Assembly: GCF_900631955.1 (NCBI RefSeq)
Contig: NZ_UZWD01000026.1
Coordinates: 1-64,000, forward strand
Length of the DNA: 64,000 bases
Direction: 5' to 3'
DNA from: Devosia equisanguinis
Lineage (GTDB): Bacteria; Pseudomonadota; Alphaproteobacteria; Rhizobiales; Devosiaceae
Shown: positions 33,034-57,434 of the stretch, one piece after another
Numbering within the stretch: the stretch's first letter is position 1
Layout: every line of letters starts with the position of its first letter
Translations under genes and position numbers: made by a program
The notes under the pieces: generated by a model
Databases searched by the model: none
Told to the model about the DNA's origin: nothing
Seen by the model: only the letters and a program-made list of their open reading frames with translations

Positions 33034-34260
33034 ATGCGAAAAATCGGAATTGTTGGCGCCGGTCAGGCCGGCCTGCAGCTGGGCCTGGGGCTGCTCAAGA
33101 ATGGCTACCAGGTGGTCATTACCTCTAATCAGACGCCGGACCAGATCCGCAATGGCCGCGTCACCTCCAGCCAATGCATGTTTGACCGCGCGCTGGAAAA
33201 CGAGCGCGCCCTGGGCATCGACTTCTGGAAAGACGCGCCGCCCGTGGAGGGAATCCAGTTTTCCCTGGTCCCGGGCGGCCAGACCGCGATGCAGTGGTCG
33301 TCCCGCCTCGACAGGCCGGCTCAGTCCATCGACCAGCGTGTGAAGATGCCGCGCTGGATGACAGAATTCGAAAAGGCCGGTGGCGAACTGCGCATCGCCG
33401 ATGTCGACATGGCCGGGCTGGAAGCGCTCGAGCAGGAATGCGACCTCGTCATCGTCGCCTCGGGCAAGGGTGAGATCGGCAAGCTGTTCCAGCGCGACGA
33501 AACGCGCTCGCCTTTCGACAAACCCCAGCGGTCGCTGGCGCTGACCTATGTGCACGGCATGGAGCCGCGCAAGGAGCATTCGGCGGTCAATTTCAACCTG
33601 ATGCCGGGTGTGGGCGAGTATTTCGTATTCCCGGCGCTGACCCTTAGCGGCCCATGTGAGATCATGGTGTTCGAAGGCATTCCCGGTGGCCCGATGGACA
33701 ATTGGGCCAATGTGAAGAGCCCGCAGGAGCATCTGGCCGAGAGCCTCCGCATCCTCAAGGAATTCGTGCCCGAGGAATATGCCCGCTCAAAGGATTGCGT
33801 GCTGACTGACGACCTCGGCATATTGGCTGGCCGCTTCCCGCCCACCGTGCGCAAGCCGGTTCTGGCGCTGCCCAATGGCGCTGTGGCACTGGGCATGGGC
33901 GACTCGGTCTGCCTTAACGACCCGATCACCGGCCAAGGCTCCAACAATGCCAGCCACTGCGCGGCGGCCTATCTCACGGCGATTCTCGAGCATGGCGATC
34001 GTCCCTATGACGCCGCCTTCATGCAGGCGACGTTTGATCGCTACTGGGATTATGCCCAGTTCGTCGTTGGCTGGACCAACAACATGCTGCTGCCGCCGCC
34101 CGAGCACATGGTCAAGATCCTCGGCACGGCCCAGCAGAACCAGAAGGTGGCCCACTGGTTCGTCAACGGCTTCAACGACCCCCGCACCTACTTCCCGACT
34201 ATCACTGACCCGGCTCTCACCGACGCCTTCTTGGCTGAGGCCATGGGAGCAGCAGCATGA
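33034..34260 (+). CDS. Styrene/indole-type flavin monooxygenase (StyA-like, group E)
   Basis: The 408-residue protein is close in length and layout to the StyA oxygenase of two-component styrene monooxygenases (about 415). FAD motif GIVGAGQAGLQLGLGL is at residues 5-20; SPFDKPQRSLAL in the middle and GMGDSVCLNDPITGQGSNNAS near residue 290 align with StyA blocks as I remember them. Group E enzymes epoxidise styrene or indole using reduced FAD from a separate reductase, and here the reductase gene follows with a four-base overlap. With an isatin-hydrolase-like gene nearby, indole or a 3-substituted indole is the best-guess substrate, giving indoxyl or an epoxide. The ATG at 33034 follows AAGGGA. 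Confidence 0.85.
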   Translation: MRKIGIVGAGQAGLQLGLGLLKNGYQVVITSNQTPDQIRNGRVTSSQCMFDRALENERALGIDFWKDAPPVEGIQFSLVPGGQTAMQWSSRLDRPAQSIDQRVKMPRWMTEFEKAGGELRIADVDMAGLEALEQECDLVIVASGKGEIGKLFQRDETRSPFDKPQRSLALTYVHGMEPRKEHSAVNFNLMPGVGEYFVFPALTLSGPCEIMVFEGIPGGPMDNWANVKSPQEHLAESLRILKEFVPEEYARSKDCVLTDDLGILAGRFPPTVRKPVLALPNGAVALGMGDSVCLNDPITGQGSNNASHCAAAYLTAILEHGDRPYDAAFMQATFDRYWDYAQFVVGWTNNMLLPPPEHMVKILGTAQQNQKVAHWFVNGFNDPRTYFPTITDPALTDAFLAEAMGAAA

Positions 34261-34763
34261 GTGAACCCATCAGCAATATCGACCCGGCGCAATTGCGCCG
34301 GGCCTTTGGAATGTTCGCCACCGGAGTGCTCATCGTCACCACCCGCTGGGGCGAGCGCATCCACGGCATGACGGCGAATTCGTTCACCTCGGTCTCGCTC
34401 AACCCGCCACTGGTCCTGATCTGCATCGACCACAAGGCTTCGATGAAACAGGCGCTGCACGATAGCGGCCATTATGGTCTCTCGGTGCTAGCGCATGACC
34501 AGCAGCATCTGTCCCGTCACTTCTCGTCGCGAGGCAGTTCTGATCTGGAGGTCAGCTTTGACGAGCTCGGCGGCATGCCGGTGGTGCAGGGGGCGCTGGC
34601 CCAGTTCTCCTGCCGCATCACCCAGGCGCCGGATGCCGGCGACCATCTGATCTTCATCGGCGAAGTCACCGACTACAAGCACAATACCGGCGAGCCGTTG
34701 CTCTACTTCGGCGGCGGTTACAAGCAATTGCACAAACCCCAGGTGATGGAGGCCTGCCAATGA
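34257..34763 (+). CDS. Flavin reductase (StyB/HpaC-like) for the monooxygenase
   Basis: A 168-residue flavin reductase of the FMN_red/HpaC family: LRRAFGMFATGVLIVTT at the start, GMTANSFTSVSLNPPLVLICID (flavin-binding block) at about residues 36-57, and a C-terminal LLYFGGGYKQL. It uses NAD(P)H to make reduced flavin for the oxygenase encoded immediately upstream. Overlaps of four bases with both neighbours show tight coupling. Confidence 0.9.
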   Translation: MSEPISNIDPAQLRRAFGMFATGVLIVTTRWGERIHGMTANSFTSVSLNPPLVLICIDHKASMKQALHDSGHYGLSVLAHDQQHLSRHFSSRGSSDLEVSFDELGGMPVVQGALAQFSCRITQAPDAGDHLIFIGEVTDYKHNTGEPLLYFGGGYKQLHKPQVMEACQ

Positions 34764-35560
34764 GCGAGTTCGAAGGAAAGGTGGCAATCGTCACGGGTGG
34801 CGCGGCCAGCATTGGCCTCGATATCACCAAGGGACTCGTAGAGGCCGGCGTAAAGGTCGTGGTTGGAGCACGCAGCCGCGAAGCCGGCGAGGCTGTAGCC
34901 AGGCAGTTCGGCGACAAGGTGCGCTATGTGGCTGCCGACATCCGCAAGGACGAAGACCTCGATGCCCTCGTTGCTGCGGCCGCGGAATGGGGTCGGCTCG
35001 ACATCGTCGTCAACAATGCCGCCGTCTATGACGACAATGGTGCTCAATCGAGCCGCGAGTCCTGGCTCAATACGCTGAACACCAATGTGGTCTCGAGCGC
35101 GCTGCTGTCGGAAAAGGCGCGGCCGCATCTTGCGAAGCAGGGGGGCTCGATCGTCAATATCTCCTCGATCAGCGCCTATGCGGCTCAGTCCGGCCGCTGG
35201 ACTTACCCGGTCTCCAAGGCCGCCATCCTGCACCTGACACACTCGCAGGCGCTGGATTATGCCAAGGACGGTATCCGGTCCAATAGCATCATTCTCGGCT
35301 GGACCTGGAGCGATCCCATTGCCGGCCTGTCCGGTAACGATCAGGAAAAGGCCGACAGTGTCGGCGCAAATTTCCACATCCTGGGGCGAGTCGGTCGCGG
35401 GCCGGAAGCGGCAGCGGCGGTACTGTTCCTGTCATCCAAGGCAGCCAGCTTCACCACCGGCTCTGAACTCAAGGTCGATGGCGGCTACACGGCGCTGGGG
35501 CCGGAAGGTCCGGGCCAGGCGATTGCCCTGCTCACCGGCGGCAGCGCCTCGGTCCGCTGA
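34760..35560 (+). CDS. Short-chain dehydrogenase/reductase
   Basis: A 266-residue classical SDR. The cofactor motif is TGGAASIG (residues about 12-19), with NNAAVYDD near 90 and SSISAYAAQSGRWTYPVSKAA providing the catalytic serine, tyrosine and lysine (YPVSK, so the usual Tyr-x3-Lys is kept). It is the third gene of the monooxygenase operon, overlapping the reductase by four bases. By position it could oxidise the hydroxylated product, for example 3-hydroxyindoline or dihydroxyindoline to indoxyl or isatin, as SDRs do in indole oxidation operons. That reaction is inference. Confidence 0.8.
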   Translation: MSEFEGKVAIVTGGAASIGLDITKGLVEAGVKVVVGARSREAGEAVARQFGDKVRYVAADIRKDEDLDALVAAAAEWGRLDIVVNNAAVYDDNGAQSSRESWLNTLNTNVVSSALLSEKARPHLAKQGGSIVNISSISAYAAQSGRWTYPVSKAAILHLTHSQALDYAKDGIRSNSIILGWTWSDPIAGLSGNDQEKADSVGANFHILGRVGRGPEAAAAVLFLSSKAASFTTGSELKVDGGYTALGPEGPGQAIALLTGGSASVR

Positions 35561-35611: not shown

Positions 35612-36586
35612 TCAGCGGCGGCGGCGTGTTTCCGACGGCGACTCGCCGAATGTCGCCTTGTAAAGCGCCGCGAAGCGCCCCAGTTGATAGAAGCCCCATT
35701 GTGTGGCCACGGACGTAACCGTTTCCTCGTCCCCGCCTGTGAGCAACTGCTCCCGCACACGATTGAGGCGTACCATGCGCAAATGGGCCAGCGGCGAGGT
35801 GCCGCGAAAGTGACGGAAACCATCGAACAGCGCGCGTCCGCTGACGCCGCTCACCGCGATCAGGTCCTGAAGGTCGAGCGGCTTGTCCGCATTCTCTTCG
35901 ATAAAGCCCTCCACCAAGCGCACATGTCGCGGCGCGATGGCATTGCTGCGCTGGGCCAGCCTGGCGGTGAAATTGTTGGCCTGATGTTCGAGCAGGCTCA
36001 CCATGAGCAGCGATTCCTGCAGGCTCGCCGCCAGCGGATTGGGCGGCTCTTCGGAAAGCTCCAACCCATCCATCAGCAGGTTCACCATGCGCCACCAATG
36101 CGCGCTCGCACCCTGCACCGGCATCGCCAGGTCGAAGCGGACGCCCTTGGCTGGTGCGCCACCGAGCATGGCCGACAATTGCTGCTCAAGTGCCCCGCGA
36201 TCGATGCGCACCATCAATTTGGCGCAGTCGGCACTCCAGCGCATGCGCGTGGCATCATCTGGGTTGAGGACTGTCGCCTGTGCGGAAGACGCCTCGGCCT
36301 CATGACGCCCTTGCTTGATCCGCGCCTGGCCGGAATAGGGGAGCATCAGCAGAAAAAAGTCATCGAGGGCGCCCGGTTCGATCTCGACGTCCGCGCCATA
36401 GCTCATCGCGCCCACCGCGATGGCTCCTGTTCGCGCCATGGTCTGCCACGCCCCGACGGTACGGGCGCCGGAGAGCGGACGCAGACGATGGTCACAATAA
36501 ACGCGGGCGACCTGTTCTCTCGCCTCGTCCACATCGGTGGTGGAGAAGCGTTCATAGCGGGCGAGCGGTTGCTGCAAAGCAGTCAT
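35612..36586 (-). CDS. AraC family transcriptional regulator
   Basis: A 324-residue regulator with an N-terminal AraC-binding-like ligand domain (residues about 20-200) and a C-terminal double helix-turn-helix (DLIAVSGVSGRALFDGFRHFRGTSPLAHLRMVRL, then VTSVATQWGFYQLGRFAALYKATFGESPS). The ATG at 36586 is preceded by GGGAG; a GTG three codons upstream is possible. It is convergent with the monooxygenase operon. AraC regulators are known beside indole oxidation genes, so it may activate them. A GTTTA/TAAAC inverted repeat lies in its own upstream region. Confidence 0.88.
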   Translation of the reverse strand: MTALQQPLARYERFSTTDVDEAREQVARVYCDHRLRPLSGARTVGAWQTMARTGAIAVGAMSYGADVEIEPGALDDFFLLMLPYSGQARIKQGRHEAEASSAQATVLNPDDATRMRWSADCAKLMVRIDRGALEQQLSAMLGGAPAKGVRFDLAMPVQGASAHWWRMVNLLMDGLELSEEPPNPLAASLQESLLMVSLLEHQANNFTARLAQRSNAIAPRHVRLVEGFIEENADKPLDLQDLIAVSGVSGRALFDGFRHFRGTSPLAHLRMVRLNRVREQLLTGGDEETVTSVATQWGFYQLGRFAALYKATFGESPSETRRRR

Positions 36587-36629
36587 CGACGTCACTCCCG
36601 TTCCGGCCCGCGAGCAGTGCCGGAAAACA

Positions 36630-36688: not shown

Positions 36689-38254
36689 TCACTTGCCCGC
36701 CAGATCCTGGGCCAGCATGAATCCCGAGCCGACGCCGGTTCCGGCGCCCGGCCAGGTCGAAGCGCCTACCTGATAGAGGCCGGACAGTGGTGTCTTCCAG
36801 CGCGACCAGCCGTGCACTGGTCGGAACAGGAAATTCTGGTCCAGGTGGTGGCTGCCGGAGAGGCTGTCGCCGCCCACCAGGTTGGGGTTCATCCGCTCGA
36901 GATCGAGCGGGGACTGCACTGCCATGCCCAGTATCTTGCCGCGAAGTCCCGGCGCATACCGTTCGATCAGGTCGATGGCGCGCTCGGCATAGGGCCCCTT
37001 GGCTTCATCCCAATTCTGGGCGCTGATCTTTCCGGCTGCGTCGCCGGCAATATCGTAGGGCAGGGTGCGGACCTGCACCCAAAGGACATGCTTGCCCTCT
37101 GGCGCGCGGCTGGGATCGAGGGCCGTCGGTTGACCGACGACGAGGACAGGCTCGTCGGGCAAAAGTCCAGAGATGGACTGCTGATAGACGCGCGACATGG
37201 TGGCATAATCCGGCGCCAGATGCACATAGGCGAAGCGCTTGAGGTCCTCTCCGGCTTGCCAATCCGGCAGGCTGTCGAGCGCCATATGGATCATCATCGT
37301 ACCGGGACCGGCGCGGAACTTGCTCGCCGGGGCGGTGAACCGCGCGGGCAGGTCGGGAGCAAGGCGGATGAGGTGGCGCGGATGAAGATTGGCAATGACG
37401 GCTCGGCTGGCGCTGATTTCGCGGCCATCGCTCAGCCGTACACCAATTGCCTTGCCGTTACGCGTGGTGATGGCGGTGACCTCGGCATTGCATTCGATTC
37501 GACCGCCCCTGGCCCCGATGACGCCGCTCATGGCGCGGATAATGGCATCGGCGCCGCCTTTGCCGAGCACCATCCCAAATGCCTGGTTGGCCATGCTTTC
37601 GAGATAGGGGAATACCGCGCCGCCGGCGATGTCGGGACCGAAGTCGAGATGCATGCCCCAGGCGGCCATCATGGCGCGCAATTGCGGGCTTTCGAAATGC
37701 CTGTCGAGATAGTTGCGCGGCGAGGAGACCAGCATGCCTGCCATGTCCCGCATCCAGTCCAGCCCTTTTTCGCGCCAGGCCCTGAACATCAGCTTGACCA
37801 CGGCAAGCGACGGCATCGGCTTGCCAAGAAGACCGCCGATATAGGCAGCATCCGAGGGAAAGCTTGCTGCCATCGCGCGCCAGGCGGCTGCGTCAGCGCT
37901 GGAAAACTCCGCAATGCGCGCACTTGTCGCCGCAAGGTCGGTGCTGACGCCCAGCCATCGACCATCGACGAAAGGGGTGGCGAAGCTGTCCGCTACGCCG
38001 ACGAAGTCCAGCCCCTGCGCGTGCAACGCCTGCTTGTGGGTGGCGTAAAAGGCAGAGCCCGCAAACATGGACAGGTTCATGGCGCAGAGATCGTGCCGGA
38101 AGCCGGGCAGGGTGGCCTCCTCGGTGCGCACCGCGCCGCCGGGGGCATCGGCCTTTTCCAGCACCAGCACGCTCCAGCCTCGCTCGGCCAGGTGGGTGGC
38201 GGCTGCCAGCCCGTTCACGCCCGCGCCAACGACAATGGCGTCTACCTGTTGCAT
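36689..38254 (-). CDS. Phytoene dehydrogenase-like FAD/NAD(P) oxidoreductase (copy 1)
   Basis: A 521-residue flavoprotein of the carotenoid desaturase-like amine oxidase superfamily. The N-terminus has VVGAGVNGLAAATHLAERGWSVLVLEKADAPGGAVRTEE, the classical FAD fingerprint, and the C-terminus has GLYQVGASTWPGAGTGVGSGFM, the flavin-binding closing motif. The start at 38254 follows GGGAGA. It shares family, length and many motifs with the gene at 39278, which lies on the other side of the isatin-hydrolase-like gene. No carotenoid genes are present, so a role in oxidising an indolic intermediate is more likely, though unproven. Confidence 0.82.
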   Translation of the reverse strand: MQQVDAIVVGAGVNGLAAATHLAERGWSVLVLEKADAPGGAVRTEEATLPGFRHDLCAMNLSMFAGSAFYATHKQALHAQGLDFVGVADSFATPFVDGRWLGVSTDLAATSARIAEFSSADAAAWRAMAASFPSDAAYIGGLLGKPMPSLAVVKLMFRAWREKGLDWMRDMAGMLVSSPRNYLDRHFESPQLRAMMAAWGMHLDFGPDIAGGAVFPYLESMANQAFGMVLGKGGADAIIRAMSGVIGARGGRIECNAEVTAITTRNGKAIGVRLSDGREISASRAVIANLHPRHLIRLAPDLPARFTAPASKFRAGPGTMMIHMALDSLPDWQAGEDLKRFAYVHLAPDYATMSRVYQQSISGLLPDEPVLVVGQPTALDPSRAPEGKHVLWVQVRTLPYDIAGDAAGKISAQNWDEAKGPYAERAIDLIERYAPGLRGKILGMAVQSPLDLERMNPNLVGGDSLSGSHHLDQNFLFRPVHGWSRWKTPLSGLYQVGASTWPGAGTGVGSGFMLAQDLAGK

Positions 38255-38304
38255 GGCCACTTCTCCCCGCGTCAACCAACAAGGAGTGCAGCCTGTCACA
38301 ATAA

Positions 38305-38464: not shown

Positions 38465-39256
38465 ATGAGCTCACTTCAAGCCCTTGCCAACGTCGCCGGC
38501 GCCCTGGCGTCCGGCGCCATCGAAATCGTCGACCTGACCGCTCCGCTGGGGCCGAATACCCCGGTTCTCTATCTGCCGCCCGACTTTGCCAAGAACACGC
38601 CCGCGTTCAAGATGCACAAGATCTCGGCCTATGACCAGGACGGTCCCTGGTGGGCCTGGGGTTGGATGGAACTGGGTGAACATACCGGCACCCATTTCGA
38701 CGCCCCCAGCCACTGGATTTCCGGCAAGGACGTGCCGAACAATTCGACCGACACCATTTCTCCGCAGACCTTTGTGGCGCCGGTAGTCGTCATCGATAAG
38801 TCCAAGGAAGTCGCTGCCAATCCCGATTTTCTGCTGACTGCCGATGACATCAAGGCCTGGGAAGCCGAGCACGGCGCCATTCCCAAGGGCGCCTGGGTCG
38901 TACTGCGGTCAGACTGGTATCCGCGCAATGTCAGCACCGAGCAGTTCCTCAATGCCGATGAGAACGGCCCGCACACGCCGGGGCCGAGCGTCGATGCCGT
39001 CAAATACCTTGTCGAAAAGCAAGTTCTGGGCTGGGGCAATGAATGCGTCGGCACCGACGCCGGCGCGGCCGCGACATTTGATCCGCCATTCCCGGCCCAT
39101 GCCCTGTTGTTGGGCGCCGGCGCCTACGGCCTGGCCAGCCTCGTTAACCTCGACAAGCTGCCGGCAACCGGCGCGCTGCTGGTCGTCGCGCCGCTGAAGA
39201 TCGTCGGCGGCACCGGCAGCCCGGTGCGCTGCTTCGCGCTCGTCCCGCGCGGCTAA
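38465..39256 (+). CDS. Cyclase family metal-dependent hydrolase, probable isatin hydrolase
   Basis: A 263-residue member of the cyclase/kynurenine-formamidase superfamily. The metal motif HTGTHFDAPSH gives His73, His77, Asp79 and His83, the positions I recall for the Mn2+ site in Labrenzia isatin hydrolase. The length (263) fits isatin hydrolase better than bacterial kynurenine formamidase (about 210). Isatin hydrolase opens isatin to isatinate (2-aminophenylglyoxylate). The ATG at 38465 follows GAGGAAAA; the frame is open far upstream, but that part is antisense to other genes. It is co-oriented with the second desaturase-like gene 21 bp downstream. Alternative: an N-formylkynurenine formamidase-type amidase. 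Confidence 0.75.
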   Translation: MSSLQALANVAGALASGAIEIVDLTAPLGPNTPVLYLPPDFAKNTPAFKMHKISAYDQDGPWWAWGWMELGEHTGTHFDAPSHWISGKDVPNNSTDTISPQTFVAPVVVIDKSKEVAANPDFLLTADDIKAWEAEHGAIPKGAWVVLRSDWYPRNVSTEQFLNADENGPHTPGPSVDAVKYLVEKQVLGWGNECVGTDAGAAATFDPPFPAHALLLGAGAYGLASLVNLDKLPATGALLVVAPLKIVGGTGSPVRCFALVPRG

Positions 39257-39277: not shown

Positions 39278-40858
39278 ATGAGCCAGCTCGATTACATCGT
39301 TGTCGGCAGCGGCATCAATTCGCTAGTTGCCGCCGCCATGTTGGGCAAGAGGGGCAACAAGGTGCTCGTACTCGAGCGCAATGCTGTCCCGGGTGGCTGC
39401 CTGCGCACCGAAGAGGCAACGGTTCCAGGGTTCGTCCATGACGTCATGGCGACTACCTTCGTGCTCTTCACCACCTCTCCAGCCTTTGCCGCGCTGGGCC
39501 CAGATCTCGCCCGGCACGGCCTCGAATTTTGCAACACCAAGGCACCCACCGGCGTGGTGCTCCCAGATGGTCGCCATCTGATATTGACCGGTGACCGTGC
39601 CGCCAACATCGCCGCTTTCGACGCCGCAGCCGCCGGCGATGGCGCCAGCTTCCAGCGCGAAATGGATCGCTTCGGCGCCAATGCCGGCTTTGTCTTCGGC
39701 CTGTTGGGAGGCCAACTCTGGTCGCTCGCGACTATGAAACTGGTGGCGCGTGAAGCCTGGAAACGCGGGCTGCGGGGTCTTGCCAGCTTCTTCGGCGAGG
39801 CGCTGGTCTCGGCGCGCCCCTATCTTGAAACGCGCTACCGCTCGGAACTGGTACGGGCTCTGTTTGCACCCTGGGTGCTGCATTGCGGGCTCAACCCGGA
39901 CAACACCTATTCCGGCGAAATGCTCAAGGTCATCGGCTTTGCGCTGGAAATGGCCGGCGCCCCCATCGCTAGGGGAGGCGCCATCAATGCGGTGCGCGCC
40001 TTCGAAGGCCTGATCGCCGAACAGGGCGGCGCGGTGCGCACCGGCTCTGAAGTTGCCGAGATTACCATCGACGCCAATGGGCGGGCTAGTGGTGTCCGCC
40101 TGGCGAATGGTGAGGTCCTGACGGCGCGAAAGGGCGTCATCTGCTCGGTCGCGCCCGGTCAGCTCTATGGCAAGCTGCTGCCGGCTGCCAAGGTACCAGC
40201 GGAAGTCGCTGAAGGCGTCGCCAATTATCGCTATGGCAAGGGCGACATGCAGATCCATTACGCGCTCAAGGGCAAGCCGCAATGGGCGGCCGAAGGAATG
40301 GCTGACGTCGCCCTGATCCATTTGACGCCTGGGCTCGACGGCGTGTCGCGCGCCGCCAACGAAGCCGAGCGCGGTCTATTGCCTGCCGTCCCCACGATCT
40401 GCGTGGGACAGCCTGCCGCCCTCGACCCTAGCCGTGCGCCCGAGGGGCAATCCATCCTCTGGCTGCAACTGCCCGAAGCGCCGAGAACGATTCTCGGCGA
40501 CGCAGCGGGCGAAATCGCTGTTGATGCTGATGGCCGCTGGACCGAAGCCGTGCGCGAAGCCTTTGCCGACCGTGTTGAGGCCATCCTTCGCCGGCACATC
40601 GTCAACTTCGACGAGATCGTCATCAAGCGCCGTAGTTATTCGCCGGCCGACCTCGAGTCGATGAACGTCAATCTGGTGGGCGGCGATCCCTATGGCGGCT
40701 ATTGTGGCATAGACCAGTTCTTCATCTGGCGACCCTTGAAGAACACCGTCAACCATAATACCCACGTGCCTGGGCTCTATCACATTGGTGCGGCAACGCA
40801 TCCGGGGCCGGGACTGGGTGGAGGCTCCGGCTTCCTGCTGGCCAAGGCCCTTCGTTAA
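39278..40858 (+). CDS. Phytoene dehydrogenase-like FAD/NAD(P) oxidoreductase (copy 2)
   Basis: A 526-residue flavoprotein with an N-terminal VVGSGINSLVAAAMLGKRGNKVLVLERNAVPGGCLRTEEAT FAD fingerprint and C-terminal GLYHIGAATHPGPGLGGGSGFLL. It is a clear relative of copy 1 at 36689, sharing for example LDPSRAPEG followed by a tryptophan-rich strand, and MNxNLVGGD near the end. It follows the isatin-hydrolase-like gene with AGGGAGAGG before the ATG and precedes a MarR regulator. Two divergent copies around one hydrolase suggest successive or stereospecific dehydrogenations of a cyclic intermediate; this is inference. Confidence 0.82.
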   Translation: MSQLDYIVVGSGINSLVAAAMLGKRGNKVLVLERNAVPGGCLRTEEATVPGFVHDVMATTFVLFTTSPAFAALGPDLARHGLEFCNTKAPTGVVLPDGRHLILTGDRAANIAAFDAAAAGDGASFQREMDRFGANAGFVFGLLGGQLWSLATMKLVAREAWKRGLRGLASFFGEALVSARPYLETRYRSELVRALFAPWVLHCGLNPDNTYSGEMLKVIGFALEMAGAPIARGGAINAVRAFEGLIAEQGGAVRTGSEVAEITIDANGRASGVRLANGEVLTARKGVICSVAPGQLYGKLLPAAKVPAEVAEGVANYRYGKGDMQIHYALKGKPQWAAEGMADVALIHLTPGLDGVSRAANEAERGLLPAVPTICVGQPAALDPSRAPEGQSILWLQLPEAPRTILGDAAGEIAVDADGRWTEAVREAFADRVEAILRRHIVNFDEIVIKRRSYSPADLESMNVNLVGGDPYGGYCGIDQFFIWRPLKNTVNHNTHVPGLYHIGAATHPGPGLGGGSGFLLAKALR

Positions 40859-42969: not shown

Positions 42970-42979
42970 CATTCCCACC

Positions 42980-45133: not shown

Positions 45134-45198
45134 CGTCGTTCTCCCAACCTTGGCGACTGCCCTTTTCTCGCCCCCTCAGGCCGCAAACGGGCATTGAT

Positions 45199-47047: not shown

Positions 47048-47099
47048 TCCAATCGGCAGCGCCGCAGGCTCTGCGGCGCTGCTTCCGAGGAGTTGGGCC

Positions 47100-49856: not shown

Positions 49857-50658
49857 ACATGCCTTGTTGGAAACACGCGGCCTCGTGGTGGATTATGCAG
49901 CGCGGCGCTCCTTTCTCGGTCCCGCCAACACGTCCACCCGCGTGTTGCGGGGCGTCGATCTCTATATCGAGGCTGGGGAGATCGTCGGGATCGTGGGCGA
50001 GTCTGGCTCCGGCAAGTCCACTCTCGGTCGCGCCATGCTCGGCCTGGTCCCAGCCACTGAGGGCAGTGTTCTGTTCGACGGCTTCGCCCTTGCCGATTTT
50101 CCCGGCGGTGATATCGCGCGCAAGCGTCACATGCAGATGATTTTTCAGGACCCGATGAGCTCGCTTAATCCGCGACACACTATCGGTGCCATCCTGACCC
50201 GGCCGCTGCTGCTGCACGGCGTGGCGTCCGACCAGCGCCAGGCAGTCGGCATTGCCGCCGCCATGCTCGAACGCGTCGGCCTGCCTGTTGCCGTGCTGTC
50301 GCGCTACCCGCATGAGCTCTCCGGCGGCCAGCGCCAGCGCGTTGGCATCGCCCGCGCTGCCCTGTTGCGCCCACGTTTCGTCCTCGCCGACGAGGTGGTG
50401 TCCGGACAGGACGTGTCCACCCAGGCGCGCGTGCTCACCCTATTGCGCGAACTCTGCCAGGAAATGGGCATGGCGCTAGCTTTTATCAGCCACGACCTCT
50501 CGGTCATCCGCGCCTTCTGCAATCGCCTCTACGTGCTCAATGGCGGCGTGGTAGTGGAGGAGGGGGCAAGCGAAACCGTCTTCGCCAAACCAAAACACGC
50601 CTACACACAGGCGCTTATCTCCGCCATTCCCATCCCCGATCCGTCGGTGCGCTGGTAA
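49849..50658 (+). CDS. Dipeptide-type ABC ATP-binding protein (DppF-like)
   Basis: A 269-residue ATPase with Walker A GESGSGKS, signature LSGGQRQRVGIARA, and a Walker B of FVLADEVVSGQDVSTQARV, in which the common DEPxSALD form is replaced by DEVVSGQD. The catalytic glutamate is retained, while the D-loop is changed (GQD). H-loop: FISHDLSVI. It ends the importer operon; a strong terminator follows three bases after the stop. Confidence 0.9.
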   Translation: MPEHALLETRGLVVDYAARRSFLGPANTSTRVLRGVDLYIEAGEIVGIVGESGSGKSTLGRAMLGLVPATEGSVLFDGFALADFPGGDIARKRHMQMIFQDPMSSLNPRHTIGAILTRPLLLHGVASDQRQAVGIAAAMLERVGLPVAVLSRYPHELSGGQRQRVGIARAALLRPRFVLADEVVSGQDVSTQARVLTLLRELCQEMGMALAFISHDLSVIRAFCNRLYVLNGGVVVEEGASETVFAKPKHAYTQALISAIPIPDPSVRW

Positions 50659-50755: not shown

Positions 50756-51535
50756 TCAGTCCTTGTAGATGCCGGTGGCGCTGGCCACGTGCCGATAGGC
50801 GGCGCCGGCGGTAAAGCCGCCATCGATGACAAAATCTTCGCCGGTTATGAAGCTTGATGCGTCGGACACGAGGAACAGCACCAGTTCGGCGATCTCCTCC
50901 GGCTTGCCGCTGCGCTTCATCGGCGTGATGCCGATCATCGGTTTGAGGTGCGGGCTGTCGGCATTGAGTCCCGTGACCACGAGGCCCGGGCAAATGGCGT
51001 TGACGCGAATGCCTTCGCCGACCATTTCCATCGCCGCGCTGCGGGTCAGCCCGCGTAGGCCCCATTTGCTGGCAGTATAGGCCGGGTCGTAATGGCCGGA
51101 AAATCCGCTATTGGACGAAATATTGACGATTGCGCCACCCTTCTCAGCCATCAACGGGCGCACGGCCTGGATGCCGAGGAAAGCGCCGGTCAGGTTGACC
51201 TTGAGCACCTTTTCCCACGCCTCGAGCGTGGTGCTGGCCACGGTCGTGCGGTTGATGATCCCGGCATTGTTGACGAGGATATCGACGCGGTGCTTCCACG
51301 CAGCGGCAAGGTCAATCACCTTGGCCCAGCTCTCCGGATCGGTCACGTCGAGGCGGATGAAGCGCGCTTCGTGGCCTGCATTGGTCAGGTCGTCAGCCAA
51401 AGCCTTGCCTTCGGCCTCAAGCACATCGGCGATGATAACAGCCGCACCTTCACGGGCGAGCAGGCGAGACTCCGCCTCGCCCTGTCCACGTGCACCACCG
51501 GTGACGATGGCAAGTTTTCCGTCCAGTCGGCCCAT
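50756..51535 (-). CDS. SDR family oxidoreductase (module A)
   Basis: A 259-residue classical SDR with TGGARGQGEAE as the cofactor motif (residues about 12-22), NNAGIINR near 90, ISSNSG and the catalytic YTASK, and GEDFVIDGGF near the C-terminus. It is a close relative of the SDR at 57577, sharing GARGQG, YTASKWG and NAVCPGLVVT-like segments. It ends the three-gene set cupin, FAH hydrolase, SDR. Substrate is probably a sugar-derived or cyclic alcohol. Which route the set serves is not determined by sequence. Confidence 0.82.
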   Translation of the reverse strand: MGRLDGKLAIVTGGARGQGEAESRLLAREGAAVIIADVLEAEGKALADDLTNAGHEARFIRLDVTDPESWAKVIDLAAAWKHRVDILVNNAGIINRTTVASTTLEAWEKVLKVNLTGAFLGIQAVRPLMAEKGGAIVNISSNSGFSGHYDPAYTASKWGLRGLTRSAAMEMVGEGIRVNAICPGLVVTGLNADSPHLKPMIGITPMKRSGKPEEIAELVLFLVSDASSFITGEDFVIDGGFTAGAAYRHVASATGIYKD

Positions 51536-51537
51536 GC

Positions 51538-52386
51538 TCAGTCCCTCGCTGTGATGGTGTGTTGCTGCTGTTCGCCCAGGCCAGTAATGCCCAGACGCAT
51601 GGTCTGTCCGGCGCGCAGGAAGACGGGCGGCTTATGACCGAGACCGACCCCCGGAGGCGTGCCGGTAGCGATGATGTCGCCGGGCTCCAGCGTCATGAAC
51701 TGGCTGATATAATGGACGAGGAAGCCAACGCCGAAAATCATGGTCTTGGTATTGCCGGTCTGGCGCCTGACGCCATCGACATCGAGCCAGAGGTCAAGAT
51801 TTTGCGGATCGGCGATCTCGTCGCGGCTGACCAGCCAGGGGCCGATTGGCCCAAATGTATCGTGGCTCTTGCCCTTGGTCCATTGGCCGCCGCGCTCCGA
51901 TTGGAACGCGCGTTCCGACACATCATTGACCAGGCAATAGCCGGCAACGTGATCAAGCGCCTTGGCTTCGCTGACATATTTTGCGCGTCTGCCGATGACG
52001 ATCCCGAGCTCGACCTCCCAGTCGGCCTTTTCCGAGCCCTTTGGAATTTCGACATCGTCATTGGGTCCGATGATGGCGCTGGTCGCCTTCATGAAGAGGA
52101 TCGGTTCGGCCGGCGGTTCCTTGCCGGTTTCCTTTGCATGGTCGGCATAGTTGAGACCAACGCAGATGAACTTGCCGACCCCGGCGATGCAGGGGCCGAT
52201 ACGGCTGCCAACCGGTGCTGCCGGCAGGGTGGAGGCGTCCAGACTGCGAAGCCTGTCAAACTCCGCCGAGGCAAGCAGCGATCCGTCGATATCGCTGACC
52301 ACCCCGCTCAGGTCCCGCAACACGCCATGGTTGTCCACCAGTGCCGGGCGCTCGGCGCCGGGCGCGCCGTATCGAGCAAGTTTCAT
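51538..52386 (-). CDS. Fumarylacetoacetate hydrolase (FAH) family protein
   Basis: The 282-residue protein has the FAH fold with an N-terminal YGAPGAERPALVD segment, GVGKFICVGLNYADHAKE, metal-binding region WEVELGIVIG with FMKATSAIIGPNDDVEIP, and GDIIATGTPPGVG. It closely recalls the 2,4-diketo-3-deoxy-L-fuconate/L-rhamnonate hydrolase branch, which splits the diketo acid to pyruvate and L-lactate. That is the step missing from the fucose module at 0.1-11.3 kb, yet this gene sits 40 kb away in an aromatic locus. Alternatively it cleaves a 1,3-diketone formed in aromatic ring breakdown. It lies two bases upstream of the SDR gene. Confidence 0.82.
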   Translation of the reverse strand: MKLARYGAPGAERPALVDNHGVLRDLSGVVSDIDGSLLASAEFDRLRSLDASTLPAAPVGSRIGPCIAGVGKFICVGLNYADHAKETGKEPPAEPILFMKATSAIIGPNDDVEIPKGSEKADWEVELGIVIGRRAKYVSEAKALDHVAGYCLVNDVSERAFQSERGGQWTKGKSHDTFGPIGPWLVSRDEIADPQNLDLWLDVDGVRRQTGNTKTMIFGVGFLVHYISQFMTLEPGDIIATGTPPGVGLGHKPPVFLRAGQTMRLGITGLGEQQQHTITARD

Positions 52387-52398
52387 CTTCGTCCCCGA

Positions 52399-52824
52399 TC
52401 AGGCGCGCGAAAAGCCGACAAGCACGGAGTCGTCGACATCGGGCAGGTTGACCACGATATTGTCGGGCGTGCGGGTGGTCAGCCAGACGAGTTCATCGGT
52501 GGTCGACATATTCACCTCGATATGCGGCCAATAGGGGGGCACAAAGATGAAGTCGCCTTCTTCCATGTCGAGATATTCGCTCCAGTTCTCGCCGAAATAG
52601 ATGCGGGCCTTGCCCTTGAGGACATAGCCGCCGGTTTCCGCCTCGCCATGGTGGTGGGGCAGGGAGCGATAGCCGGGATCATTGCTGACGCGGCCGAACC
52701 AGATCTTGGTGGCGCCGGTGTGCTGCGGGCCGACGCCCGTAACGCGGATGCAACCGCCGGACTGAGCCGTGCCGGTATGTTCCTGGCCCTTGCGGGTAAC
52801 GACGGGCTGGAGTGTGGCAGCCAT
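52399..52824 (-). CDS. Cupin domain protein (module A)
   Basis: A 141-residue single cupin. The first cupin motif contains PHHHGEAETGGYVLKGKARIYFG (His-rich metal site near residues 57-60), and the second contains FIFVPPYWPHIEVN. The start at 52824 is chosen because an extension to 52869 adds unconserved sequence. It is clearly paralogous to the cupin at 59299. Function is unknown; it may be an isomerase, a dioxygenase-like protein or a sensor. It heads the cupin, FAH, SDR operon and has operator motifs upstream. Confidence 0.8.
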   Translation of the reverse strand: MAATLQPVVTRKGQEHTGTAQSGGCIRVTGVGPQHTGATKIWFGRVSNDPGYRSLPHHHGEAETGGYVLKGKARIYFGENWSEYLDMEEGDFIFVPPYWPHIEVNMSTTDELVWLTTRTPDNIVVNLPDVDDSVLVGFSRA

Positions 52825-52854
52825 GGTATTCTCCTCGATGACGCTGGCTTTCGA

Positions 52855-52900
52855 TCTATGCCAATGCATTTAACTGGCGCTCTTTTAGTTTAGGTGTCAA
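52855..52900. promoter_or_regulatory. Operator motifs between cupin operon and marR gene
   Basis: CTATGCCAATGCATT begins near 52856; its CTAT-CCAATGCA core also appears, on the opposite strand, in the 32.57-32.60 kb promoter (CTATACCAATGCA). AATGCATT (52863-52870) is a perfect palindrome. TTTAGGT is at 52889-52895. The site lies between divergent cupin (52824) and MarR (52978) genes. Confidence 0.55.
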
Positions 52901-52977: not shown

Positions 52978-53496
52978 ATGAGTGAGGGGCAGGGCCGCGT
53001 CTGGATCGATGCCGAGACCAAGGTCGCCGATGCGCCGGAGGATCACCACGACCAGCTGCGTCTATGGCTGCGGTTGTTCAGCGTCACGCGCCTGGTGGAG
53101 AACGAGGTGCGCAGCCGCTTGCAGAGCGAGTTCGACGTCACTTTTCCCCGTTTTGATATCCTCTCGCAGATTTATCGCATGCCCGAGGGACTGATCCTGG
53201 GCGAGCTGTCGCAGCGCTTGATGGTTTCGCCCGGCAATATCACCTCGGTCATCAAACGGCTCGAGGAAGATGGACTGATCCTGAGGACGCAAAACCCCAA
53301 TGATCGGCGCGAAAGCATCGTGCAGATGACGCCGCTGGGCCGCGAAAAATTCAAGGAAATGGCGGCGGCCCACGAAGAGTGGATCCGCAACCTCACTGAC
53401 GGCCTCAACGCCGCCGATGTCAAATCCTTGCTCGGTCTTCTGCAGAAGACCAAGACGTCGGTGCGCCGGGCCTTGGTCGACGACACACGGCCCTGA
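52978..53496 (+). CDS. MarR family transcriptional regulator (2)
   Basis: A 172-residue MarR protein with the winged helix-turn-helix at about residues 65-130 (LILGELSQRLMVSPGNITSVIKRLEEDGLILRTQNPNDRRESIVQMTPLG). It is divergent from the cupin operon and convergent with the RidA/monooxygenase operon. Autoregulation through the motifs at 52855-52900 and control of the 2-aminobenzoyl-CoA operon through 57466-57514 are plausible. Confidence 0.9.
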   Translation: MSEGQGRVWIDAETKVADAPEDHHDQLRLWLRLFSVTRLVENEVRSRLQSEFDVTFPRFDILSQIYRMPEGLILGELSQRLMVSPGNITSVIKRLEEDGLILRTQNPNDRRESIVQMTPLGREKFKEMAAAHEEWIRNLTDGLNAADVKSLLGLLQKTKTSVRRALVDDTRP

Positions 53497-53515: not shown

Positions 53516-53920
53516 TCAGTCTTCGTCCGGCACCACGGCCAGGGCGACGATCTCGATCTTGGCGCGATCTTCCATCAGCGCCACGACCTGCACCGCTGCC
53601 ATGGGCGGAAAATGACGGCCGATGATCTCGCGATAGGCCGCACCCACCTCTTTGAGCCGCGACTTGTAGGCATGGCGATCGGTAAAGTACCAGGTCAGCT
53701 GGATGATATGTTCCGGCTTGGCGTCGGCCTTTTCCAGCACGGCGACAATATTTTTCAACGTCTGGCGCACCTGGTCGACGAAGTCGTCCGAGTGAAATTC
53801 GCAGTTCTCGTCCCAGCCCACCTGGCCGCCGACCTGCACGATGCGACCGCGCGTCGAAATGCCGTTGGAATAGCCGATGGGCTTGGCCCAGTTGTCGGGC
53901 TGGATGAACTGGTGGGTCAT
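53516..53920 (-). CDS. RidA family protein (enamine/imine deaminase-like)
   Basis: A 134-residue member of the RidA/YjgF/UK114 family, with VQVGGQVGWDENCEF near residue 30, QTLKNIVAVLEKA in the middle and VVALMEDRAKIEIVALAV at the C-terminus. RidA proteins hydrolyse reactive enamines and imines to ketones and ammonia. It is the last gene of the operon begun by the 2-aminobenzoyl-CoA monooxygenase/reductase, whose expected product is an enamine-type 2-amino-cyclohexene carboxyl-CoA. Deamination of that product is therefore a natural inferred role. Its ATG overlaps the thioesterase stop. Confidence 0.88.
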   Translation of the reverse strand: MTHQFIQPDNWAKPIGYSNGISTRGRIVQVGGQVGWDENCEFHSDDFVDQVRQTLKNIVAVLEKADAKPEHIIQLTWYFTDRHAYKSRLKEVGAAYREIIGRHFPPMAAVQVVALMEDRAKIEIVALAVVPDED

Positions 53921-54330
53921 GGTGTCGGCTCCAGGTAACGGGAAAGACCGGCACGAACATCGTCGGGCCAGCGTGTGGATTTGTGATCGGTGAGCGAAGT
54001 GGCGACGATGCGCTGCTGGATGGTCCAGATAACGTGCTCGCCAACGCTGACAATCGTTTCGAGATCGAGCGAGGCACCGCCGACCTTGCGCACATGCACG
54101 GCGAAGTCGAGCACGTCGCCATAGGTCGCGGGACGCTTGAATTCGATATGCATGGTAACGGTGGGCAGGCCCATCTTGCGCTCGAACATCAATTCCTTCC
54201 AGGTGACCCCGAAGGAAGCGAACATGGCCTCGTTCACGTCGACCAGCATGGAGAGATAGGCGGGGTGATAGGCGATCCCGGTCAGGTCGCAGTCCCCGAA
54301 GCGCAGGGGTTTGGAAATCGTGAATGCCAT
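53917..54330 (-). CDS. Acyl-CoA thioesterase (4HBT hotdog fold)
   Basis: A 137-residue hotdog-fold protein with the 4-hydroxybenzoyl-CoA thioesterase layout: RFGDCDLTGIAYHPAYL near residues 10-26, where the acid of the second Asp region would be catalytic, and MHIEFKRPATYGD later. Such enzymes release a CoA-bound aromatic or alicyclic acid. GGAGGA precedes the ATG. It lies in the 2-aminobenzoyl-CoA operon and may either act in the pathway or rescue trapped CoA. Confidence 0.86.
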   Translation of the reverse strand: MAFTISKPLRFGDCDLTGIAYHPAYLSMLVDVNEAMFASFGVTWKELMFERKMGLPTVTMHIEFKRPATYGDVLDFAVHVRKVGGASLDLETIVSVGEHVIWTIQQRIVATSLTDHKSTRWPDDVRAGLSRYLEPTP

Positions 54331-54339: not shown

Positions 54340-55131
54340 CTATCCAGCCAAGACTTCACCGCCAGCAACGGCGATGGCCTGGCCCGTTATGGCCGAAGCC
54401 GATGGTTGCGCCAGCCACAGTACCGTGTCGGCGACCTCTTGCGGCGACACCAGTCGTCCCTGCGGATTGGCCTTGGCCAGCTCAGCCCTCGCGTCTTCCG
54501 GGGTGCGCCCGGTCTTGGCGACAATGGCCTCGATCGAGCGGGTGATGAGTGGCGTATCGGTAAATCCGGGGCAGACCGCGTTCACCGTTGCGCCCGTGCG
54601 CGCCAGTTCCAGGGCCAAGGATCGGGTCAGTCCCACCACACCATGCTTGGCGGCGGCATAAGCACTGACATAGCGATAGCCGGTCAGTCCCGCCGTCGAG
54701 GCGATATTAATAATCCGCCCGGCTCTACTGGCCTTAATATCGGCCAGAAACGCCTGGGTGACCAGGAAGACACCTGTGAGGTCAGTCAGAATGACCTTGT
54801 TCCAGAAGGCCGGTGTCATCTTGTCGAACGGCGCGCTGGGAGCCTCGCCGGCATTGTTGACGAGGATCTCCACCGGGCCGAACCCATCATGTGCAGCGAT
54901 CACGCCCAGCGCGATGGCATCGGCATCGGTGACGTCGAACCGGTCCACCAGATGCACTCGGTCCGGCGGCAGGCTATCTGCCGCCGCTTCCAGCCGCGCT
55001 TGGTCGCGACCGGTCATCGTCACATTGGCGCCGGCTTCGAGCAGGCTGTGCACGATGGCAAGGCCTATGCCGCCCGAGGCGCCGGTCACCAGCGCATGGC
55101 GACCGGACAGGGTCTGCGTGGGTCCGCTCAT
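54340..55131 (-). CDS. SDR family oxidoreductase (3-hydroxyacyl-CoA-like)
   Basis: A 263-residue SDR with TGASGGIG (about 15-22), [14 protein letters not shown], and catalytic serine/YAAAK ([22 protein letters not shown]). It resembles hydroxybutyrate or 3-hydroxyacyl-CoA dehydrogenases. The ATG at 55131 overlaps the stop of the monooxygenase/reductase gene (ATGA), so it is translationally coupled to it. It probably oxidises or reduces an alicyclic CoA thioester made by that enzyme. The frame is open upstream to 55428, but that part is antisense-type shadow within the neighbouring gene. Confidence 0.83.
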
Positions 55132-57434
55132 CGGGCCGCTCGCTCCAGATTGTTCTCGTATTGCGCCTTCGCCGAATAGTATTGCTTGGGCCAGGCCACC
55201 GACTTGATACCGATCTTTGCGGTTTCGTGCATCAGCCAGCTTGGATCGGCCAGGTGCGGACGAGCCACGGCGCAGAGATCTGCGCGGCCGGCCGCAATGA
55301 TCGAATTGGCGTGGTCTGCTTCCGAAATGGCGCCCACTGCAATGGTGGGGATGCCGACTTCGTTGCGCACCTTGTCGGAGAACGGGGTCTGGAACAGGCG
55401 CCCATAAACCGGCTTCTCCTCTTTCCAAACCTGACCGGATGAGCAGTCGATGAGATCGGCGCCAGCGTCCTTGAACATCTTCGCAAAGATCACTGCATCA
55501 TCGGGCGTGTTACCGCCCTCGTACCAGTCGTGGCAGGACAAGCGCACCGATATCGGGCGATCTTCCGGCCAGACTTCCCGCACGGCGCGGAACACTTCCA
55601 GCGGGAAGCGGGCGCGGTTTTCGTGGCTGCCGCCATATTCGTCCTCGCGACGATTGGTCAGCGGGCTCAGGAAACTCGACAGCAGATAGCCATGGGCGCA
55701 GTGGAGCTCAAGCCAGTCGACGCCGGCTTCGGCGGCACGCATGGCCGCAGCGACATGGTCGGCCTTGACCCGATCCATGTCGGTCCGGTCCATCGCCTTG
55801 GGCACCGGACTGTGTTTGAGATAGGGCAGGGCCGAAGCCGAAATCAGTGGCCATGCACCCTCTTCCAGCGGCTGGTCGATGCCATCCCATGCGAGCTTGG
55901 TCGAGCCCTTGCGGCCAGCATGGCCCAACTGGCAGCCCAGCTTCGCACCGGTATTGGAGTGGACGAAATCCGCCAGGCGCTTCCAGCCTTCCTTCTGCTC
56001 GTCGTTCCACAGACCCAGGCAGCCCGGGGTGATGCGCGCATCGGGCGAAACGCAGGTCATCTCAGCAAAAACCAGCGCTGCACCGCCCATGGCGCGCGAA
56101 CCCAGATGTACCATGTGGAAATCGTTGATCAGCCCGTCGGTGGCCGAATACATGGCCATGGGCGAAACGACGATGCGGTTCTTGAGCGTCACGTCGCGCG
56201 CCTTGAACGGCGTCAGCATGGGCGGCAGGCTGCGCGTGTCAGGCTCGACATTGAGCCCCGAATGCGCGGCAAACCAGCGCTCATAGCCTTCCAGCCATTT
56301 GGCGTCCCGCAGGCGCAGGTTTTCGTGGCTGATACGCTGCGAGCGGGTCAGCATGGAATACATGAACTGCTCGGGGGGCAGGGTATCGGCGTAGCGTTCA
56401 CCCACCACCTCGAACCATTCCATCGCGTTGCGGGCCGCATTCTGGATACGGGCCACATCGACGCGTCGGATCTCTTCGTAGTCGGCCAGCACGGCCGGAA
56501 TCTTATCCGCGTCATGCCCATGAATCTGAAACTGCCGCGTCAGCTCGATCGCATCCTCGATCGCCAGCTTGGTGCCCGAGCCGATGGCGAAGTGCGCGGT
56601 GTGGGCGGCGTCGCCCATCAGCACCACATGCGACTGGCCGTTGAAATGGCTCCACTTGCCACAGATCAGCCGGTTGAAGTTAAGCCAGGCCGAGCCGCGC
56701 ATATGCCGCGCATTTGTCATCAGCGGCGCGCCATCTAGCGTGTCGGCGAATAGCGTCTCGCAGAAGGCGATGGAGGCGTCCTGATCGGCGCTGTCGAGAC
56801 CGTGCGCCTTGAACGTATCCTCTGTGGTTTCAACGATAAAGGTCGAAGTCTGGTCGTCGAACTTGTAGATATGCGCCTGGAACCAGCCGTGGTCGGTCTT
56901 GCGGAAATCGAAGGTGAAGGCGTCGAATTGCTTGTTGGTCCCCAGCCAGATATAGCGGTTGGGGCGCTGCTGCAGATCGGGCTGGAACACGTCCTTGTAG
57001 GCGTTTCGGACCTTGGAATTGAAGCCGTCCGAAGCAATTACGAGATCGGCGTCGGGAAAATCGAGATCGGAATTGACCTCGGTCTCGAACTTGAGCTTGA
57101 CGCCGAGTTCCTCGCAGCGCGCCTGCAGGATATTGAGCAGCTTCTTGCGCCCGATACCGACAAAGCCGTGACCGCTGGTGCGCTGCCGGGTGCCTTTGAA
57201 CAAGACCTCGATATCGTCCCAGTGGTTGAAGGCGTCCTTGATGATCGCCGCGCTTTCCGGGTCCCATTTGTTCATGGCGTCCATGGTCTGGTCGGAGAAC
57301 ACGACCCCCCAGCCAAATGTGTCATAGGGCCGGTTGCGCTCGACCACCGTCACCTGGTGCTCGGGGTGGTTCTTCTTCATCAACAGGCCAAAATAGAGGC
57401 CGGCCGGCCCGCCGCCGATACAGACTATGCGCAT
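55128..57434 (-). CDS. 2-aminobenzoyl-CoA monooxygenase/reductase-like fusion protein
   Basis: A 768-residue fusion. Residues 1 to about 370 are a flavin monooxygenase of the aromatic hydroxylase type ([26 protein letters not shown] at the start, [22 protein letters not shown] near 275). Residues about 405-768 are an old-yellow-enzyme domain ([56 protein letters not shown]). This exact fusion is that of 2-aminobenzoyl-CoA monooxygenase/reductase, which hydroxylates and reduces the CoA-activated ring to a non-aromatic product; similar proteins are annotated as salicylyl-CoA 5-hydroxylase. No CoA ligase is encoded nearby. Strong GGAGG before the ATG. It heads the operon with SDR, thioesterase and RidA. 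Confidence 0.88.

Follow-up and report, generated by a model that had tools for sequence, protein, structure and literature searches.

Can indole be carried through isatin to 2-aminobenzoyl-coenzyme A (CoA) without an aryl-CoA ligase? This question is raised by a locus at positions 32995-57434 of the window analyzed here, which is the 64,000-nucleotide stretch at positions 1 to 64,000 (forward strand) of contig NZ_UZWD01000026.1 of Devosia equisanguinis, in a 4.1 Mb Devosia-group genome. The locus comprises several divergent operons. In order, they encode a StyA-like monooxygenase, a flavin reductase and a short-chain dehydrogenase/reductase (SDR) on the plus strand; an AraC regulator and a first CrtO-like flavin adenine dinucleotide (FAD) enzyme on the minus strand; an isatin hydrolase, a second CrtO-like FAD enzyme and a first MarR regulator (plus); IorB and IorA (minus); a Dpp/Opp-type ABC importer (plus); an SDR, an FAH-family protein and a cupin (minus); a second MarR regulator (plus); and a 2-aminobenzoyl-CoA or salicylyl-CoA monooxygenase/reductase (ACMR) with an SDR, a thioesterase and RidA (minus). 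All genes named in the initial annotation (the StyA-like oxygenase with its reductase and SDR, the isatin-hydrolase-like cyclase, IorAB, and ACMR with SDR, thioesterase and RidA) were recovered after correction of one open reading frame (ORF), and the two CrtO-like FAD genes, the AraC gene, the two MarR genes, the ABC transporter and the SDR/FAH/cupin genes are additions to that list. We consider it likely that these genes form a super-locus for the catabolism of indolic compounds, with an 'isatin node' at its core, that leads from indole through dioxindole, isatin and isatinate to 2-aminobenzoyl-CoA and then to ACMR. The basis of this reading is the identity of the genes, their co-occurrence and linkage in other genomes, the finding of no ligase, and a shared operator.

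In the proposed route, the iif-like monooxygenase, reductase and SDR would, by homology, oxidize indole to dioxindole, which one of the CrtO-like FAD enzymes would probably oxidize to isatin. The isatin hydrolase would open the ring to give isatinate (2-aminophenylglyoxylate), an aryl 2-oxoacid, and IorAB would convert isatinate and CoA by oxidative decarboxylation into 2-aminobenzoyl-CoA, CO2 and reduced ferredoxin. ACMR would then dearomatize the CoA ester, and the product would be degraded by the SDR, RidA and thioesterase (and the FAH, SDR and cupin proteins), with RidA deaminating it and the FAH and SDR enzymes opening the ring. By forming the CoA ester directly, IorAB would replace the 2-aminobenzoate-CoA ligase of the known pathway. 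The modules are known and their junction is apparently new; among the matches listed from the open-licence PubMed Central literature, no paper joined isatinate, an IorAB-type enzyme and 2-aminobenzoyl-CoA.

The cyclase gene (38465..39256, plus strand, 263 amino acids) encodes a protein that matches isatin hydrolase B of Labrenzia aggregata (structure 4j0n) over residues 1-262, with 378.8 bits and E = 1.1e-112. It carries HTGTHFDAPSH, which fits the metal motif HxG[T/A]HxDxPxH, and the signature GLAS. Isatin hydrolases, which convert isatin to isatinate, are described as sharing this metal motif and a GLAS or GLQC signature (PMC6117287; papers are cited by their PubMed Central numbers, each as excerpted text). 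Based on the full-length match and the published motifs, we regard the cyclase as a predicted isatin hydrolase of the B type (IHB). An identity as IifA, which acts from dioxindole to anthranilate, was disfavored because the isatin hydrolase signature is present; a further ground is that the cyclase had no match in an Acinetobacter iif-type stretch (E ≤ 1e-8, 45% coverage), where IifA itself was not aligned. We also rejected the ORF at 35564-39256 (1230 amino acids) as an isatin hydrolase fusion. Its first ~960 codons run antisense to the AraC gene and the first CrtO-like FAD gene, and it cannot be one protein because these antisense genes show the codon-position GC pattern of the genome. In GC-rich DNA, open frames of this kind can mislead ORF-based annotation.

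The iorB gene (41419..42987) and the iorA gene (42980..45133) lie on the minus strand. The IorB-like subunit, with POR and DUF6537 domains, scored 691.9 bits against NF006179 (PRK08312 beta subunit), for which the cut-off is 348 bits, and its closest named relatives are found in two Devosia genomes (84% and 85% identity). The IorA-like subunit carries the thiamine pyrophosphate motif GDG...N at 484 and seven C-terminal cysteines at 623-675, which are putative iron-sulfur cysteines; it had no match among solved structures at E ≤ 1e-5.

The initial annotation had called for a check of co-occurrence in other genomes. We searched the same 377 Hyphomicrobiales genomes for IorB, hydrolase, ACMR and StyA-like proteins, and later for the ligase. 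Positive genomes were those with IorB over the family cut-off (67 genomes), a hydrolase of at least 50% identity (48), ACMR of at least 670 bits (119) or a StyA-like protein of at least 58% identity (9). Left out were IorB matches under the cut-off (128 of the 195 genomes with any match), ACMR-like proteins below 670 bits, and StyA-like proteins below 58% together with two fragments. Hydrolase-like cyclases below 50% identity (51 places in 48 genomes) were kept out of the counts and used as a control. Only the best candidates were scored in each genome (three for IorB and for the ligase, two for ACMR, six for the hydrolase and four for StyA), so copies could be missed; a few of the 119 ACMR genomes were counted from partial copies at the ends of contigs, and contig breaks can hide linkage.

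The check bore out the expectation. IorB (Fisher p = 1.5e-45) and ACMR (p = 3.2e-28) were each present in every one of the 48 hydrolase genomes, and the nine StyA genomes without exception have the hydrolase, IorB and ACMR. The distance between IorB and the hydrolase was at most 10 kb in 33 of the 48 genomes and at most 25 kb in 38. Within 25 kb we also found the hydrolase and ACMR in 23 of 48 genomes, IorB and ACMR in 21 of the 64 genomes that carry this pair, and StyA and IorB in three of nine. In the control, by contrast, none of 15 genomes had a distant cyclase at 25 kb or less from IorB, and none of 28 had one that close to ACMR. Genome-wide presence alone was set aside as proof, since even the distant cyclases showed a weak presence-based association with IorB (15 of 48 genomes, p = 0.011), perhaps as a genome-size effect. 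The argument rests on linkage and shared operators. Given the co-occurrence, the linkage and the shared operator described below, we suggest that isatin hydrolase, IorAB and ACMR act as one functional unit. To this extent the steps joined in the initial annotation would belong together, whereas the indole module, present in only nine of the 48 hydrolase genomes, is an optional front end.

The same cassette was found in two other Hyphomicrobiales families: one genome (G293) has hydrolase-FAD-MarR-iorBA-Dpp-AraC-SDR-StyA-ACMR within ~25 kb, and the other (G010) has the set within ~35 kb. On a plasmid of Alloyangia pacifica (Rhodobacterales), 19 of the gene types of the window are found rearranged within ~21 kb. 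In Azospirillum thermophilum the genes are split between two plasmids, one with AraC-SDR-StyA-reductase-transporter-FAD-cyclase and the other with MarR-iorAB-Rieske-ligase-ACMR-RidA, whose ligase is of the iadF-like kind. On a plasmid of Caballeronia sp. SBC1, iorA-iorB-thioesterase-ACMR is followed by a cyclase 5 kb on, and no ligase is annotated in 29 kb of the PLSDB gene tables, which are incomplete. In Paracoccus saliphilus, hydrolase-MarR-iorAB adjoins an iad-like set (Rieske, ligase, thiolase, SDR, cyclase), and Ruegeria pomeroyi has iorAB with no cyclase listed in the 29 kb read. These variants suggest a fixed isatin node with exchangeable upstream modules.

The stretches upstream of iorA and ACMR share an identical 19-mer that contains the palindrome ATATGCAAATGCATAT. 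Before iorA it forms the putative operator palindrome ATATATGCAAATGCATATT at 45197..45215; the ACMR promoter region (57468..57512) contains a TTTAGGTCTAAA palindrome and then ATATGCAAATGCATAT at 57482-57497. This length of 19 compares with shared words of at most 14 in 300 dinucleotide shuffles of eight intergenic stretches of the locus. The 16-bp palindrome occurs without mismatch exactly twice in the 4.1 Mb genome, before iorA and before ACMR (57482), and allowing up to two mismatches adds only one further place. Among relatives, sites with up to three mismatches were found before iorA in 11 of 22 (null mean 0.1) and before the hydrolase in five of 22 (null mean 0.05), the latter including Alloyangia (L082) and Paracoccus (L085); at the same stringency there was none before StyA in three relatives and one before FAD enzyme 1 in 15. 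The second motif, TTTAGGTCTAAA, gave 10 strand-wise matches in the window at up to two mismatches, against 0.5 expected. These correspond to eight places, since a palindromic site gives two matches. One of them, at 20373, is outside the locus; the others (32594, 36631, 38323, 45445, 52889, 57468 and 57501) are intergenic and lie before the StyA operon, AraC, the hydrolase, iorA/SBP (SBP, the substrate-binding protein of the importer), the second MarR gene and, twice, ACMR.

Two MarR regulators are encoded on the plus strand, MarR a (40880..41407, MarR_2) and MarR b (52978..53496). The second-best solved relative of MarR a is 7kym (E = 7.8e-19), which is among the PDB codes of a paper on auxin-catabolism MarR proteins. 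In that paper, MarR binds between iadR and iadA, where iadA is an IorA homologue (PMC9613470). A comparison of MarR b with solved structures for a ligand clue gave generic MarR matches only. A gene with MarR b as its best match was present in 46 of the 60 ACMR stretches that were read. From the shared palindrome, a MarR protein probably controls iorAB and ACMR jointly.

If IorAB makes 2-aminobenzoyl-CoA, then it should replace the ligase, and we tested this prediction. We read 60 of the 119 ACMR neighborhoods as DNA and took ligase distances for all 119 from positions. A ligase of one similarity cluster was found in 28 of 30 neighborhoods from IorB-free genomes versus 10 of 30 from IorB genomes; one member of the cluster scored 374.3 bits against TIGR02262 (benzoate-CoA ligase), just below the cut-off of 375.25. 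The ligase is present in 110 of the 377 genomes. Where ACMR occurs without IorB, 54 of 55 genomes have the ligase, and in 49 of the 55 it is within 15 kb of ACMR. Among the 21 genomes with IorB at most 25 kb from ACMR, the ligase is within 15 kb in five, and none was found genome-wide in six; with IorB elsewhere in the genome, it is near ACMR in 29 of 43 and anywhere in 39 of 43. Nine genomes with IorB, hydrolase and ACMR, spanning seven families, gave no ligase, versus one of the 55 ACMR genomes without IorB (p = 0.005). In total, 118 of the 119 ACMR genomes have the ligase or IorB, and the exception is 75% complete.

In the genome of D. equisanguinis itself, all 12 AMP-binding candidates were scored; the seven AMP-binding enzymes are at most 28.2% identical to the reference ligase, with no match at E ≤ 1e-120, and at most 32.9% identical to the nearest ligase-cluster member among those listed. 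The bypass of a CoA ligase, as first annotated, is therefore plausible for this genome, since no benzoate-CoA-type ligase was found in it, but it does not extend to a general replacement elsewhere. The proposed bypass of catechol likewise holds in part: a PF00848 search of this genome found no Rieske oxygenase alpha subunit, which leaves the catechol route from anthranilate without its usual first enzyme, although intradiol dioxygenases are present.

Several observations weigh against the isatin-node reading. IorA scored 276.5 bits against the alpha equivalog TIGR03336, under its cut-off of 650.9, and is therefore a relative rather than an equivalog. The ligase is kept somewhere in 39 of the 48 three-gene genomes and beside the linked ACMR in five of 21, and it lies in the same 21 kb in two of seven named IorB loci (L011, Mesorhizobium; L014, Beijerinckia). 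Replacement is thus not general, and the three-gene genomes may need the retained ligase for external anthranilate. The linked ACMR of one genome (G202) is only 43% identical. Among 14 relatives, only L048 has the palindrome before ACMR, and there the site also lies before a divergently transcribed iorA; evidence that iorA and ACMR are controlled together is thus confined to the present genome. Since 19 of the 67 IorB genomes lack the hydrolase, the IorB family may have other substrates. A nine-gene Variovorax region, iadC-K2, makes anthranilic acid from indole-3-acetic acid (IAA) (PMC12633357), which suggests that IadAB is not needed for isatinate to end up as free anthranilate. The Acinetobacter iif system yields anthranilate without isatin (PMC6221969). 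Finally, a Providencia iif-type cluster also carries a PF04199 cyclase (PMC9871250), which was not compared with the cyclase here and which weakens the rejection of an IifA identity.

Of the alternatives, the one that survives best, which we nevertheless consider unlikely, is that isatinate or dioxindole is converted enzymatically or chemically to free anthranilate, that an unrecognized ligase activates the anthranilate, and that IorAB serves another purpose. Anthranilate is the detected end product of Variovorax iadC-K2 (PMC12633357) and the iif product in Acinetobacter (PMC6221969), and further AMP ligases are encoded in the genome, including two next to an isatin-hydrolase-A-like gene. However, these two group with the ligases of iad-like gene sets, and none found was of the benzoate-CoA type. 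The anticorrelation of ligase and IorB beside ACMR, together with the operator shared by iorA and ACMR, also argues against this route and for a direct IorAB step.

Somewhat less likely still, IorAB could be an indolepyruvate or arylpyruvate oxidoreductase of aromatic amino acid or auxin metabolism that became a neighbor through general aromatic catabolism. Its family name would fit such a role, as would the IorB genomes that lack the hydrolase. No aminotransferase was seen among the Pfam matches of the locus, however, and the occurrence of IorB in every hydrolase genome, mostly within 10 kb (33 of 48), and the operator in common with ACMR speak against this role.

The ACMR gene (55128..57434, minus strand) encodes a fusion of an FAD monooxygenase and an old yellow enzyme (OYE) domain (Pfam FAD_binding_3 and Oxidored_FMN), and its product passes NF006101, 'bifunctional salicylyl-CoA 5-hydroxylase/oxidoreductase', with 1369 bits against a cut-off of 1078. 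The 2-aminobenzoyl-CoA monooxygenase/reductase has the same FAD-monooxygenase/OYE layout, and the substrate here would be either 2-aminobenzoyl-CoA or salicylyl-CoA. It is improbable that ACMR is a salicylyl-CoA 5-hydroxylase of a separate salicylate or benzoate pathway, as the NCBIfam name would have it, because RidA and an SDR accompany it and it co-occurs with the isatin hydrolase. In addition, a monooxygenase/reductase that dearomatizes 2-aminobenzoyl-CoA to a non-aromatic product is reported from Azoarcus evansii (PMC4539516), an enzyme whose identity to the present one was not compared; no Azoarcus or Aromatoleum record was among the matches listed for ACMR (40 of 100). That the operons are unrelated neighbors, as their divergence and several regulators might suggest, is very improbable and strongly disfavored by the shared operators and by the recurrence of this gene set in other families and a different bacterial order.

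Upstream of the isatin node lies the indole module, which consists of the StyA-like monooxygenase of the IndA/IifC type (32995..34260, plus strand; Pfam Smoa_sbd, E = 1.1e-46), its flavin reductase partner of the StyB/IifD type (34257..34763, plus; Pfam Flavin_Reduct, 144.8 bits), an SDR of the IifB type (34760..35560, plus; PRK08265, 323 bits) and an AraC-family regulator in an IifR-like position (35612..36595, minus; AraC_binding_2 and HTH_18). The best solved relative of the monooxygenase is 7z4x (528.9 bits, residues 13-416), which we take to be VpIndA1. Identity to the Acinetobacter iif-type stretch is 56% for the monooxygenase, 49% for the SDR and 38% for the flavin reductase. The module thus has the iif-type complement of oxygenase, flavin reductase, SDR and AraC regulator. 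As to IifA (not aligned here) and the porin IifE, no additional genes were predicted within 32995-36595, and the cyclase at 38465 belongs to the isatin hydrolase type. The module is iif-like, and we did not file it as an iif cluster. StyA-like oxygenases oxidize indole, and with the iif SDR the product is 3-hydroxyindolin-2-one (PMC6221969). The conversion of indoxyl to isatin that was originally proposed is not upheld: no gene for it was identified, and the SDR should by iif homology yield 3-hydroxyindolin-2-one (dioxindole). Isatin is therefore more likely to arise from dioxindole, perhaps via the CrtO-like FAD enzymes.

These enzymes, of the carotenoid ketolase/desaturase type, flank the isatin hydrolase: FAD 1 (36689..38299, minus; Amino_oxidase/NAD_binding_8) is nearby in eight of 14 loci and FAD 2 (39278..40858, plus) in 10 of 14. 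Both are candidate isatin-forming oxidases. The Dpp/Opp-type ABC importer (45518..50658, plus), with its SBP, two permeases and two ATPases, is kept beside IorA in loci L014, L016, L037, L043/L094, L095 and L097. A 10-bp perfect inverted repeat followed by T's at 50661-50685, between the convergent ABC and SDR genes, is a likely terminator; scans for sigma-70 promoters and terminators gave nothing beyond chance (4 versus 3.4 expected and 12 versus 9.8, respectively).

Downstream of ACMR in its operon follow an SDR directly after it (54340..~55110, start estimated), a 4HBT thioesterase (53917..54330) and a RidA family protein (53516..53920; PF01042, E = 1.2e-21), all on the minus strand. The SDR, FAH-family hydrolase and small cupin at 50756..52869 (minus) also adjoin ACMR in another locus (L065). 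The Alloyangia cassette has an SDR and an FAH protein that are 65% and 74% identical, respectively, to those of 50756-52869, and a cupin that is 82% identical to the other cupin of the window at 59299-59748. Taken together, 50756-52869 and 58476-59748 hold SDR, FAH, cupin and metallo-beta-lactamase genes, which in L065 stand beside an ACMR operon with a ligase and without IorAB; the Alloyangia cassette has SDR, FAH and cupin without the metallo-beta-lactamase. IorAB loci of Caballeronia sp. SBC1 (L078), Ruegeria pomeroyi (L079) and Shinella (L081) contain a ~375-amino-acid cupin, an FAH hydrolase, a C-N hydrolase and an Asp/Glu racemase, a set that would fit cleavage of 5-hydroxyanthranilate to maleamate, maleate and fumarate.

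Another contig of the same genome (C70; L004 2966-9532) carries, after a LysR gene, a thiolase, a zinc-ribbon SDR, an isatin-hydrolase-A-like cyclase and two successive ligases. The cyclase is 50% identical to that of the window and has the signature GLQC. This set resembles iadFGHI, is adjoined by an M20 peptidase and a copper amine oxidase, and was found with no Rieske oxygenase genome-wide. It perhaps serves the breakdown products or conjugates of auxin, not IAA itself.

More tentatively, and with rather less confidence than for the locus itself, we propose that Alpha- and Betaproteobacteria have a general isatin node that works aerobically. Its core would be isatin hydrolase and an oxygen-tolerant IorAB, with iif- or iad-like modules feeding the node and ACMR draining it; IadA/IadB would catalyze the same reaction, and the CrtO-like enzymes would be new isatin-forming oxidases. 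If this is true, then such a node saves ATP and keeps anthranilate out of the pool, a 2-oxoacid:ferredoxin-type oxidoreductase replaces an ATP-using aryl-CoA ligase in an aerobe, and genome-based prediction of how root and soil bacteria remove auxin and indole would change. The place of isatin in bacterial indole breakdown, as a true intermediate or as a dead end, has been described as unsettled (PMC6221969). The reaction of isatinate and CoA to 2-aminobenzoyl-CoA and CO2 would bear on this status of isatin and on the role of IadA/IadB.

Each part of the locus can be compared with a known system. The aryl-CoA-dearomatizing monooxygenase/reductase is common to this locus and the aerobic 2-aminobenzoyl-CoA pathway of Azoarcus evansii; that pathway, however, starts with a 2-aminobenzoate-CoA ligase, and no such ligase was found in this genome. 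A 2-aminobenzoyl-CoA gene cluster is reported as vital to indole degradation once it reaches anthranilate (Qu 2017, as cited in PMC6221969). With the iad auxin-degradation locus of Variovorax, Bradyrhizobium and Achromobacter, the present locus shares MarR and the IorAB markers; IorA/IorB (IadA/IadB) are reported as exclusive markers of iad loci, for which isatin and isatinic acid were detected (PMC9613470). The iad locus has the Rieske oxygenase IadDE, for which the PF00848 search of this genome found no candidate, whereas here the IadFGHI-like set lies on another contig and iorAB accompanies ACMR and the indole module. The isatin hydrolases A and B of Labrenzia aggregata have in common with the cyclase the full-length match, the metal motif and GLAS; the excerpted text of PMC6117287 concerns the mechanism of the Labrenzia enzyme, without a gene-cluster assignment, whereas here the enzyme stands in a gene cluster. 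Finally, the iif/ind cluster of Acinetobacter, Cupriavidus and Providencia has the same StyA-like oxygenase, flavin reductase, SDR and AraC regulator. The iif route runs from dioxindole to anthranilate, with no mention of IorAB in the excerpted text, and the 11-kb Acinetobacter stretch (L087) has no gene matching isatin hydrolase at E ≤ 1e-8, whereas D. equisanguinis supplements this module with an isatin hydrolase, IorAB and two CrtO-like FAD enzymes.

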